Source: Paludibacteraceae bacterium (GTDB lineage Bacteria; Bacteroidota; Bacteroidia; Bacteroidales; Paludibacteraceae). From it: a DNA stretch of 64,000 nucleotides. The DNA lies in the NCBI GenBank assembly GCA_024405855.1, contig JAKSNZ010000002.1, positions 1 to 64,000 on the forward strand. Reading direction: 5' to 3'. The translations under genes were made by a program, and so were the position numbers. The notes beneath the pieces were generated by a model. The model had not been told where the DNA came from. It saw only the letters and a list, made by a program, of their open reading frames with translations, and made no database searches. Positions 11,000 through 15,019 of the stretch are shown one piece after another. The first letter of the stretch is position 1. Each line of letters starts with the position of its first letter.

Positions 11000-11587
11000 A
11001 TGAAGGCAAAATTTATTTCTATTGCTCTATGTGCAATATTTGCATTGGCAATGACAGGTTGTAAGTCAAGCAGCTCATCTTCTACATCAAGTGCTGCTTC
11101 TTCTAATTCAAGTATTTCAAGCACAGTAGCTTCAATGCTTGGAGTTCAGTCTGCAACAGCAACATCTGCTGCAAAACAGGCAGGTTCAACAGCAGGTTCA
11201 TCACTGATTAACCTGTACAATAACTATAAGTCTGCCGGCAAGCTTGATTTTTCAAATACAAGTAATTTACTTAACATTGCCACTCTTGCCACAAGTGTAG
11301 CAACAATAAAGGATAATGCCAAGGATAAGGAGTTTTATAAGGAATTTGCAGGTGGTATGATTCAAAGTGCATTGGGGTTGGTTAATACTTCAAATGTTGA
11401 CAATACAATATCCGCTCTGTCTAACATTGATTTGAACTCGTTGACATCAGCAGCCACATCAGCCGCTACATCAGCAGCCACATCTGCAATAACTTCTGCA
11501 GCAGGAAAGGTTAATACTGCAACTTCAGATGTCAGTTCCGCTGCTGTTTCAGCGTTGTCAACTTTACTTGGCTCTCTTGGCAAGTAA
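11000..11587 (+). CDS. Small Ser/Ala-rich lipoprotein of unknown function
   Basis: The 195-residue protein has a lipoprotein signal (lipobox LAMTGC, lipidated Cys at about residue 20) followed by a Ser-rich linker (KSSSSSSTSSAASSNSS). A central part with NLYNNYKSAGKLDF and DNAKDKEFYKEFAGGM looks folded and helical. Near residues 150-170 a TSAA(A/T) unit repeats about four times (codons of the type ACATCAGCAGCC), so slippage may vary its length. I do not recognise a family with certainty. It is monocistronic, with its own -7 box and terminator. The lack of a +2 Asp gives no sorting clue for Bacteroidota. Confidence 0.8.
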   Translation: MKAKFISIALCAIFALAMTGCKSSSSSSTSSAASSNSSISSTVASMLGVQSATATSAAKQAGSTAGSSLINLYNNYKSAGKLDFSNTSNLLNIATLATSVATIKDNAKDKEFYKEFAGGMIQSALGLVNTSNVDNTISALSNIDLNSLTSAATSAATSAATSAITSAAGKVNTATSDVSSAAVSALSTLLGSLGK

Positions 11588-11606: not shown

Positions 11607-11643
11607 AAAAAGTAGGATAATCTTTGGTTATTCTACTTTTTTT
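11607..11643 (+). terminator. Intrinsic terminator after the lipoprotein gene
   Basis: A 14-bp stem (11607-11620 with 11628-11641, one G-T wobble) with a 7-nt loop ends in a T-run. The loop contains the TTTG -33 element of the argR promoter, so terminator and promoter are physically interleaved. Confidence 0.85.
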
Positions 11644-11655
11644 GTATAAATTTGC
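11623..11655 (+). promoter_or_regulatory. argR promoter
   Basis: TTTG at 11623-11626, a 20-bp spacer and TAaaTTTGC at 11647-11655 match the Bacteroidota promoter. The transcription start should be near 11661, about 34 nt before argR ATG 11695, putting the ARG box at 11675-11688 in the 5' leader. Confidence 0.8.
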
Positions 11656-11674
11656 ATGATTTTTGCAGAAAAAC

Positions 11675-11688
11675 TGAATATTTATTCA
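11675..11688. promoter_or_regulatory. Predicted ArgR operator (ARG box)
   Basis: TGAATATTTATTCA is a perfect 5-4-5 palindrome matching the core of the classical ARG box (TGAAT-WWWW-ATTCA). It lies between the predicted transcription start and the argR ATG, 6 bp before it, which fits autorepression and control of the downstream arg genes. The consensus comes from other phyla; its use here is inferred. Confidence 0.65.
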
Positions 11689-11694
11689 AAAATT

Positions 11695-12150
11695 ATGAAA
11701 AACAAGAGCGATAGGATAAAGTTTATCAGACAGATTTGCATTGACAATTATGTCTCAAGTCAGGAGGAATTGCTGGAGATTCTCAGAAAGAACGGCTACA
11801 ATCTGACTCAGGCAACGTTGTCAAGGGATTTGAAGAGACTTAAAATATCAAAGACCCTGACTACTACCGGTGAATACCGCTATGTGGTGCCAATAAACAG
11901 TTTCTCAGCATCGGTGCCGGCAGACCCTAAATTGATAGGGGTCAATTCTCTTGAGTTCTCAGGACCTTTTGCAGTTATAAAAACAAAATCGGGCTATGCC
12001 GCCGCCATTGCTTCAGAAATAGACAGGGATTCCACAAATGCCATTCTTGGTACAATTGCCGGTGATGACACCATTCTTGTTATTCCAAGGGAAGGTTTTT
12101 CAAGAGATGAGTTGACAATGATTATTACAAAACTAATAGAGAAGTCTTGA
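11695..12150 (+). CDS. argR: Arginine repressor
   Basis: ArgR is a hexameric repressor that binds ARG boxes when arginine is high. The 151-residue product starts MKNKSDRIKFIRQ and has an N-terminal winged helix (about 1-70, with SSQEELLEILRKNGYNLTQATLSRDLKRL) and a C-terminal oligomerisation/arginine-binding domain (about 80-150, including GYAAAIASEIDR and GTIAGDDTILVI, where the Asp pair contacts arginine). The frame opens further upstream at 11656, but that extension would run through the ARG box and lacks homology, so ATG 11695 is chosen. The gene begins the argR-GNAT-argG-argC run. Confidence 0.96.
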   Translation: MKNKSDRIKFIRQICIDNYVSSQEELLEILRKNGYNLTQATLSRDLKRLKISKTLTTTGEYRYVVPINSFSASVPADPKLIGVNSLEFSGPFAVIKTKSGYAAAIASEIDRDSTNAILGTIAGDDTILVIPREGFSRDELTMIITKLIEKS

Positions 12151-12169
12151 ACAGTTGTTCATTTTTGAA

Positions 12170-12802
12170 ATGGAAGCGTCAGATATAAAAATAGTGGTGG
12201 CTGATGAAAGTCATGTCAAATATGTTGATACAATTCTGTCAACAATTGCGGCTGCGGCTGCTGTAAGGGGAACGGGAATAGCAAAACGTAATCCGGAATA
12301 TGTAAAGCAGAAAATGCTTGAAGGTAAAGCGGTTATTGCTCTTTACGGAGAAGAGTTTGCAGGGTTCAGTTATATTGAGACTTGGGGAGGAAAACATTAT
12401 GTCACTACATCAGGTCTTATTGTTCCTGAAAAATTCAGAGGATTGGGCGTTGCCAAAAGAATTAAGCATGTTACATTCACTCTTGCACGCATGCGCTGGC
12501 CTGAAGCAAAGATTTTCAGTCTTACATCAGGAGCGGCTGTCATGAAATTGAATACGGAACATGGCTATATTCCGGTAACATTTGCCCAACTTACTGATGA
12601 TGAGTCATTTTGGAAAGGATGTGAGGGTTGTATAAACCATGATGTCCTCAAACGTACGGACAGAAGATACTGTGTATGTACAGGAATGCTCTATGACCCT
12701 CAACGTGAACGCAGTGTACGCGATGCTAACGAGGAGTTGGAAAAGGACCCTGAAGTGCTGAATATAATCAAGCAAAGATTCCCAAACGGATTTAATAATT
12801 AA
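12170..12802 (+). CDS. GNAT acyltransferase, probable N-acyl-glutamate synthase (argA-type)
   Basis: The 210-residue product has a GNAT fold (GFSYIETWGGKHYVTTSGLIVPEKFRGLGVAKRI at about 68-101, with the acyl-CoA loop RGLGVA) and a C-terminal extension with Cys residues (GCEGCINHD, YCVCTGMLYDP). In Bacteroidota this gene sits between argR and argG. As I recall, its Bacteroides thetaiotaomicron counterpart supplies the first arginine step, making N-succinyl- or N-acetyl-glutamate in place of a classical ArgA. Location and family agree with that here. The open frame includes a TTG at 12155, but ATG 12170 gives a cleaner N-terminus. It starts 19 bp after the argR stop. Confidence 0.85.
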   Translation: MEASDIKIVVADESHVKYVDTILSTIAAAAAVRGTGIAKRNPEYVKQKMLEGKAVIALYGEEFAGFSYIETWGGKHYVTTSGLIVPEKFRGLGVAKRIKHVTFTLARMRWPEAKIFSLTSGAAVMKLNTEHGYIPVTFAQLTDDESFWKGCEGCINHDVLKRTDRRYCVCTGMLYDPQRERSVRDANEELEKDPEVLNIIKQRFPNGFNN

Positions 12803-12858: not shown

Positions 12859-14055
12859 ATGAAAAAAGTAGTTGTTGCTTTTAGTGGAGGTCTTGACACC
12901 TCTTACACCGTTATGTATCTTGCAAAAGAAAAAGGTTATGAAGTTTATGCGGCTTGTGCAAATACAGGCGGATTCAGTGCAGAACAGTTAAAGAAGAATG
13001 AAGAGAATGCCTATAAATTGGGTGCAAAGAAATATGTAACCCTTGACGTAACACAAGAGTACTATGACAAGAGTTTGAAGTATATGGTGTTTGGGAATGT
13101 GTTGCGTAATAATTGCTACCCTATCTCTGTAAGTTCCGAGCGTATTTTTCAAGCCATTGCAATTGCCAGATATGCAAATGAGATTGGTGCTTCTGCAATT
13201 GCCCATGGCTCAACAGGTGCAGGTAATGACCAAATCCGTTTTGATATGACATTCCTTGTAATGGCTCCTGGAGTGGAGATAATAACCCTTACAAGAGATG
13301 GTAACTTAAGTAGACAGGAGGAAGTTGATTACCTTAATAAAAACGGATTTTTTGCCGATTTCACCAAGTTAAAGTACTCTTATAACGTAGGAATTTGGGG
13401 TACATCAATATGTGGTGGAGAGATACTTGATTCAAAGCAAGGTTTGCCTGAATCTGCATATTTGAAGCACCCTACAAAAGAGGGTCCGGAAATATTGAAG
13501 TTAGGATTTGACAAAGGTGAACTTTGCAGTGTAAACGGAAAGGAATTTTCAGATAAAATTAAGGCAATTCAAGCGGTGGAGGAGATTGGTGCAGCATACG
13601 GCATTGGCAGAGATTGCCATGTAGGAGATACAATTATAGGCATTAAGGGTAGAGTAGGTTTTGAGGCTGCCGCCCCTATGCTTATCATTGGAGCACACAG
13701 ATTCCTTGAAAAATACACTCTTAGTAAATGGCAACAATATTGGAAAGACCAGGTATCAAATTGGTATGGAATGTTCCTGCATGAAAGCCAATATCTTGAA
13801 CCTGTTATGCCTGATATTGAGGCAATGCTTCAAAGTAGTCAGCGTAATGTAACGGGAGAAGTTACATTGGAATTACGTCCGTTAGGATTCCAGACAGTTG
13901 GAGTTGATTCTCCAAATGATTTGGTTAAGAATAAACTTGGTGAGTATGGTGAAACGGCTAAGGCTTGGAGTTCCGAAGATGCAAAAGGCTTTATTAAGGT
14001 AACTTCCACAGCACTGCGCGCATATTATCTTGCTCATCCGAATGAGAGACAATAA
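12859..14055 (+). CDS. argG: Argininosuccinate synthase
   Basis: ArgG joins citrulline and aspartate using ATP, the penultimate arginine step. The 398-residue product has the PP-loop SGGLDTS at residues 9-15, the citrulline/aspartate region AHGSTGAGNDQIRFD (about 115-129) and the C-terminal tail expected of the family. Length fits. It starts 56 bp after the GNAT gene, with a palindrome in between, and is followed one base later by argC. Confidence 0.97.
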   Translation: MKKVVVAFSGGLDTSYTVMYLAKEKGYEVYAACANTGGFSAEQLKKNEENAYKLGAKKYVTLDVTQEYYDKSLKYMVFGNVLRNNCYPISVSSERIFQAIAIARYANEIGASAIAHGSTGAGNDQIRFDMTFLVMAPGVEIITLTRDGNLSRQEEVDYLNKNGFFADFTKLKYSYNVGIWGTSICGGEILDSKQGLPESAYLKHPTKEGPEILKLGFDKGELCSVNGKEFSDKIKAIQAVEEIGAAYGIGRDCHVGDTIIGIKGRVGFEAAAPMLIIGAHRFLEKYTLSKWQQYWKDQVSNWYGMFLHESQYLEPVMPDIEAMLQSSQRNVTGEVTLELRPLGFQTVGVDSPNDLVKNKLGEYGETAKAWSSEDAKGFIKVTSTALRAYYLAHPNERQ

Positions 14056-14056
14056 T

Positions 14057-15019
14057 ATGATTAAAGTAGGAATTATAGGTGGTGCGGGTTATACCGCAGG
14101 AGAGTTGTTAAGAATACTTCTTAACCACCCTGATGTTGAAGTTAAGTTTGTTAACAGTAGCAGTAATGCCGGTAATAAACTATACTCTGTTCATGAAGGT
14201 CTGTTTGGAGAAACAGATATGGATTTTACCGATGAAATGGACTTAAATTCCATAGATGTGGTATTTATGTGTTCAGGTCATGGCAAAAGCACAGAGTTTT
14301 GGGCAGAACATAAAAAACCGGAGTCTCTTAGAGTAATAGATTTGGCTCAAGATTATAGGAATGAAAGCAACGGGTATGTTTATGGATTACCTGAAATAAA
14401 CAGGGAACGCATAAAGAATTGCACATTGCTTGCAAATCCAGGTTGTTTTGCAACTGCAATCCAACTTGGTCTATTGCCTCTTGCCGCTAACGGGTTGCTT
14501 GACGCTGAAGTGCAGACCACAGGTATCACAGGTTCTACAGGTGCAGGCGTAAAACCTGGTGCCACAACACATTTCAGTTGGAGGAATAATAATTTGTCTG
14601 TTTATAAGGCATTTGAGCATCAACATCTTATAGAGATAAACCAGACGATGCACAAACTTCAGCCAAACTTTGACAAATCAATTAATTTTATTCCTTTCAG
14701 GGGTGATTTTGCAAGGGGAATATTTATAGCGTCATATTTGGATAGCAAGTTAGGTGAAGAGGATGCAGTGAAACTCTATAAGGAGTTCTACAAGGATGCA
14801 GCATTTACATTTGTTATGGATGAGAATCCTGATATGAAGCAAGTGGTCAATACAAATAAGGCAATAGTCCATGTAGAAAAACATGGGGGAAAACTGCTTG
14901 TTTTGTCAGTGATAGACAATTTGCTTAAGGGTGCATCGGGGCAAGCGGTTCAAAATATGAACTTAATGTTTGGATTAGATGAAACAACGGGGCTAAAACT
15001 TAAGAGTTCAGCGTTTTAA
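14057..15019 (+). CDS. argC: N-acetyl(succinyl)-gamma-glutamyl-phosphate reductase
   Basis: ArgC reduces the acyl-glutamyl phosphate to the semialdehyde. The 320-residue product starts MIKVGIIGGAGYTAGELLRILLNHP (Rossmann NADP site at about 6-15) and has the catalytic Cys in LLANPGCFATA (about residue 134). The long frame begins at a TTG inside argG (14030), but ATG 14057 directly after the argG stop is clearly right. In this phylum the acyl group may be succinyl rather than acetyl. The 3' end overlaps the 3' end of the sirtuin gene on the other strand by 20 bp. Confidence 0.97.
   Translation: MIKVGIIGGAGYTAGELLRILLNHPDVEVKFVNSSSNAGNKLYSVHEGLFGETDMDFTDEMDLNSIDVVFMCSGHGKSTEFWAEHKKPESLRVIDLAQDYRNESNGYVYGLPEINRERIKNCTLLANPGCFATAIQLGLLPLAANGLLDAEVQTTGITGSTGAGVKPGATTHFSWRNNNLSVYKAFEHQHLIEINQTMHKLQPNFDKSINFIPFRGDFARGIFIASYLDSKLGEEDAVKLYKEFYKDAAFTFVMDENPDMKQVVNTNKAIVHVEKHGGKLLVLSVIDNLLKGASGQAVQNMNLMFGLDETTGLKLKSSAF

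Follow-up and report, generated by a model that had tools for sequence, protein, structure and literature searches.

Control of arginine genes by the repressor ArgR is textbook knowledge in E. coli and Bacillus. In E. coli, ArgR operators consist of paired 18-bp ARG boxes that lie 3 bp apart, which makes a 21-bp repeat; E. coli ArgR is reported to be a poor roadblock, and boxes downstream of the transcription start to be unusual (PMC6640053). The promoter consensus of Bacteroidota is TTTG near -33 and TAnnTTTG at -7 (PMC7366714). The listings of literature searches gave no description of an ArgR operator in Bacteroidota, and in the B. thetaiotaomicron literature that they reached nothing was found on argR.

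The window, by which we mean the whole 64-kb stretch of DNA analyzed here, contains an argR gene (11695..12150, + strand) preceded by the palindrome TGAATATTTATTCA (11675..11688, + strand), which sequence, shuffles and the leaders of relatives mark as the probable main operator box. The outer five bases on each side form an exact palindrome, all ten core positions of TGAAT-N4-ATTCA are matched around an AT-rich centre, and 6 bp separate the end of the box from the argR ATG at 11695. The original prediction of an exact core ARG-box palindrome 6 bp before argR is thus correct in coordinates and in gap. From the sequence comparisons described below, we consider it highly probable that this palindrome is the promoter-proximal box of an ArgR operator that represses the argR operon under arginine, and we propose that a second palindrome around the -7 promoter element is probably contacted as well. 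The locus is like E. coli (PMC6640053) in having a core box of the TGAAT-N4-ATTCA type, in the overlap with promoter elements and, in many relatives within the Bacteroidales, in the 21-bp repeat distance. It is unlike E. coli in its promoter (TTTG/TAnnTTTG), in its upstream box, which is degenerate here and contains the -7 element, in the position of the good box downstream of -7, and in the 31-32 bp between boxes in the window's clade. The type of control is familiar; what is special is its close fit to a promoter of the unusual kind that this group of bacteria uses.

The ArgR protein itself (151 aa) was assigned from Pfam, NCBIfam and solved structures. It scores above the cut-offs of both ArgR domain families, with 69.4 bits (cut-off 27) for the N-terminal DNA-binding domain PF01316 and 68.3 bits (cut-off 25) for the C-terminal arginine-binding/oligomerisation domain PF02863; its score against NCBIfam TIGR01529, 116.6 bits, is below the cut-off of 130.45. 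The closest solved structures by sequence are 1f9n (AhrC) and 1b4a (ArgR), which are two-domain repressors like the protein of the window, the comparison being one of proteins; 1f9n is the AhrC of B. subtilis. The window protein contains TQATLSRD and GTIAGDDT, which we take to be the helix-turn-helix motif and the arginine-binding motif (GTxAGDDT), respectively. These stretches are mostly invariant or nearly so among 21 aligned orthologues, in which Q39, T41, S43 and R44 of the helix-turn-helix and G119, T120, A122, G123, D125 and T126 of the GTIAGDDT motif are invariant. Beyond the argR of the window, the genome has no match to the argR family.

Unlike in E. coli, argR here leads a biosynthetic operon, in the order argR-acetyltransferase-argG-argC. 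The second gene (12170..12802, + strand) encodes a GNAT-like acetyltransferase that matches PF00583 weakly (E 0.017) and the PA4794 GNAT structures at E 4e-4. The acetyltransferase gene stands downstream of argR in 45 of 54 argR loci. It is strongly conserved, its Pfam match being only weak, and in this group its product may be the pathway's glutamate N-acyltransferase. The gene is followed by argG for argininosuccinate synthase (12859..14055, + strand), assigned from NCBIfam models with E values down to 1e-79 that stay below the curated cut-offs, and by argC for N-acetyl-gamma-glutamyl-phosphate reductase (14057..15019, + strand), which exceeds the cut-off of TIGR01850. Since argR heads the operon, control in its leader would reach all of these genes; to judge from the arrangement, the controlled unit is probably the entire argR-acetyltransferase-argG-argC operon, beyond argR alone. 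Another palindrome, TGAACAGTTGTTCA (12148-12161), lies over the argR stop codon; it was rejected as an operator because it is absent from all 14 other genus junctions examined.

The argR leader has the features of a Bacteroidota primary promoter as read from its sequence: a candidate -33 element TTTG (11623..11626, + strand), a spacer of 20 bp, and the -7 element TAAATTTG (TAnnTTTG; 11647..11654, + strand). The "well-formed promoter" that had been claimed upstream of the box is real, and of Bacteroidota type. The loop of an intrinsic terminator hairpin overlaps the -33 TTTG. This hairpin (11607..11641, + strand; -20.6 kcal/mol, z -9.0), which was assigned from its fold and sequence and has a T-rich 3' arm, belongs to the upstream gene at 11000-11587, whose product is Ala/Ser/Thr-rich, lipoprotein-like and without a family match; among the argR loci compared, relatives of that gene are present only in L003-L006. 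A half-site, GCATGATTTTTGCA (11654..11667, + strand), precedes the main box by exactly 21 bp; it carries a second TTTGCA (11662-11667) and could serve as a half box or as a weak second -7; this TTTGCA is a possible alternative -7 candidate. With either -7, the box probably falls just downstream of the predicted transcription start. The two TTTGCA copies form a TTTGCA-N5-TTTGCA repeat with an 11-bp step at 11651-11667, a by-eye reading made in leaders L001-L007. The repeat may mark one helical turn inserted between the -7 element and the box.

Taken by itself, the motif proves little. TGAAT-N4-ATTCA occurs once in the window, against a mean of 0.21 in shuffles, and it is present in 13 of 20,000 dinucleotide-preserving shuffles of the 110-bp argR leader. 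Across the whole genome (1.76 Mb searched, 95.65% complete) the strict core is found at 8 places, against 3 for a reversed control pattern, and the core is therefore a weak predictor. The evidential weight rests on the position and the conservation of the box.

Conservation was assessed in two sets of genomes. argR was detected in 55 of 81 genomes, that of the window included, and these provided 54 leaders, again with that of the window; the 55th, from G017, was left out as its argR match runs to a contig end. Within the 60 bp before argR, 32 of 52 leaders of relatives (a count that omits L018, its leader being too short) match TG[ACT]ATWWWWAT[AGT]CA at 13-14 of 14 positions, some of these best matches being the -7 palindrome itself; shuffles gave a mean of 1.75 and a maximum of 5. 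A named genome collection returned no match to an argR protein query, and an argG query of the same collection returned 80 named loci, yielding 72 argR leaders. Once repeats were removed, 53 of 118 distinct leaders carried a box with at least 13 of 14 matches in their final 35 bp (shuffles: mean 1.4, maximum 6), and the box is thus conserved at the same place before orthologous argR. The original prediction had staked the palindrome on its conservation in relatives. This holds for the near-consensus box; the exact 14-mer core appears to be conserved less than its perfection suggests, being kept in 3 of 16 genus members (that of the window, L003 and L004), with at least 9 of 10 core positions at the proximal place in 9 of the 16. 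No good box was found in the argR leader of the nearest relative, L002 (G003), whose ArgR is 81% identical.

The specificity of the arrangement for argR was assessed across 295 genomes of the order with a composite pattern of promoter and box, TGNATANNTTTGCA-N7-TGNATAWWTATNCA, at no more than two mismatches; the pattern was drawn from an inspection of the 54 leaders, and the 295 include some of the genomes from which these came. It matched in 66 of the 295 genomes, its reversed control in 0, and argR was detected in 114. Fifty-six of the 70 distinct sites lie within 500 bp upstream of argR and on its strand, and 47 of these 56 are at -5 to 11 bp from the matched argR start. When no more than one mismatch is allowed, 44 of 45 sites are at argR, all within 89 bp. 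At up to two mismatches the composite is missing from 58 of the 114 argR-bearing genomes, and G192, a genome without a detected argR, has a perfect match. Away from argR, the composite precedes acetyltransferase-argG in G179 (argR being elsewhere in that genome), proB in G085 and a leuA-like gene in G302, and lies between proB and a citrate-synthase-like gene in G165; names of neighbours given without a family search were read from the protein sequence by eye. For the remaining non-argR sites, with G187 left out, no evident arginine link was found. The conservation of the box and its near-exclusive placement at argR lend good support to the autorepression that had been predicted, in so far as sequence comparison can speak to it, and the lone box and the argR-only scope of that prediction need refinement.

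The notion of one box is accurate for the strict motif, of which the window has a sole copy, and does not extend to degenerate sites. A degenerate ARG-like palindrome, TGTATAAATTTGCA (11643..11656, + strand), starts 32 bp before the main box does and embeds the -7 element; we propose it as the partner box. Because the -7 of argR sits inside this second palindrome, the operator probably consists of more than one box. An ARG-like palindrome surrounds the argR -7 (TGNATAnnTTTGC, with TAnnTTTG) in 15 of the 16 leaders from the genus and in 12 of 38 outside it. TGNA stands ahead of TANNTTTGCA in 25 of the 35 copies that belong to argR. In the rest of the DNA retrieved the figure is 5 of 122; this background may contain argR leaders of further genomes and is thus biased against the TGNA claim. 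Fisher tests on the TGNA and palindrome counts overstate significance because the sequences are related.

The distances between these elements fall in a narrow set. From palindrome to palindrome the distance is 21 bp in many families and in the same-genus leaders L009, L011 and L015, and 31-32 bp, about one turn more, in the window's clade (L001, L003-L007 and L021). Examined for two boxes 21 bp apart, the window has its degenerate box at 32 bp and the half-site at 21 bp. In 53 leaders, the nearest TAnnTTTG (counted from its T) is 17-20 bp from the box in 43 leaders and 27-28 bp from it in another 7; none lies between 20 and 27 bp, one is at 82 bp, and two leaders have no -7; the distance in the window, 28 bp, belongs to the second class. 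The -7-to-box distances therefore form two classes about one helical turn apart. An alternative layout is seen in the argR leader L036 (G043), where two good boxes 21 bp apart lie upstream of the -7.

How might such an arrangement repress? We propose that an arginine-loaded ArgR hexamer would occupy the good box within the first transcribed bases, and that the same hexamer, on the same helix face, would also contact the weaker box containing the -7 element. RNA polymerase would be kept off the argR promoter, or held at it, and the expression of argR, the acetyltransferase gene, argG and argC, presumably co-transcribed, would be lowered together. When arginine drops, ArgR would depart and the operon would be expressed. 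Given that ArgR is reported to be a poor roadblock in E. coli, contact at the -7 seems likelier than repression by blocking elongation only. The proposal can be taken further: in the argR leaders of Bacteroidales, promoter and operator would be merged, the -7 element of the primary sigma factor being the left ARG box of a pair, with the other box kept some two or three helical turns away. Sigma factor and repressor would therefore read the same bases. These two propositions, taken jointly, seem to us evenly poised between right and wrong. Alternatively, the box alone may be the operator and repress from downstream, with the -7 palindrome an extended promoter motif that ArgR does not bind. We give this explanation a lower though still appreciable probability. 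Single boxes occur in other ArgR systems, and in many leaders of Prevotella-like type the proximal box is retained while the -7 palindrome is absent; of the 72 argR leaders from the named collection, among which Prevotella-like ones are numerous, only 14 have this palindrome. However, among promoter-like sites upstream of open frames TGNA before the -7 is enriched at argR (24 of 38, against 3 of 100 others, the latter three being identical in letters to argR leaders of further genomes in the background), and the 21-bp spacing is that of the E. coli pair; both argue against an operator confined to one box.

Explanations in which ArgR has no part at the DNA fare much worse. The palindrome is part of what is probably the 5' leader and ends 6 nt ahead of the ATG, where it could work in RNA by forming a small hairpin that adjusts translation from just before the start codon. 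The hairpin would have only five pairs, four of them A-U, and its action would leave the two distance classes, one helical turn apart, unexplained; the idea was rejected because the leader folds no better than its shuffles (z +0.84), and we regard it as very improbable. The same low probability attaches to a site read by another regulator or arisen by chance. Stray copies of the core do exist in the genome, as the 8 places against 3 for the control attest, but the near-exclusive placement at argR across the 295 genomes is hard to reconcile with such an origin, as is the finding that boxes are far commoner than in shuffles.

The reach of this control in the window's genome may be narrow. A relaxed pattern, TGNATWWWWATNCA, has 6 sites in the genome against 3 for its control, and only the argR site is before an arginine gene, the identities at the other five having been judged by eye. 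No box was found in the argH, argF' and argB leaders of this genome. The scan for further boxes near arg genes that the original prediction proposed returned none with the relaxed pattern and in these leaders. Perhaps the argR operon is all that the regulon contains in this genome, or perhaps weaker boxes were missed. The same genome (G000) has argF', argG, argH and argB, its only OTCace-family gene being of the argF' type, yet has no carbamoyl-phosphate synthase small subunit above the cut-off, in an assembly that may be incomplete. Of the 16 genomes of the genus only 4 have this subunit above the cut-off, and the copy in G007 is divided between two contigs.

The operator described here is, on present comparisons, an ordinary and well-supported ArgR autoregulatory one, with the further point that the -7 element and one of the boxes appear to be merged. 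The case illustrates a repressor site fitted to a promoter unlike that of E. coli, and if promoter and operator are indeed merged, a pair spaced by three turns could naturally be tested in the window's clade. The conserved unit of promoter plus box offers a search motif by which arginine control could be traced among gut Bacteroidales. For the organism, the argR leader is a simple promoter that is probably arginine-responsive, and the box is very probably the switch by which the repressor of a gut bacterium lowers its own arginine-synthesis operon.
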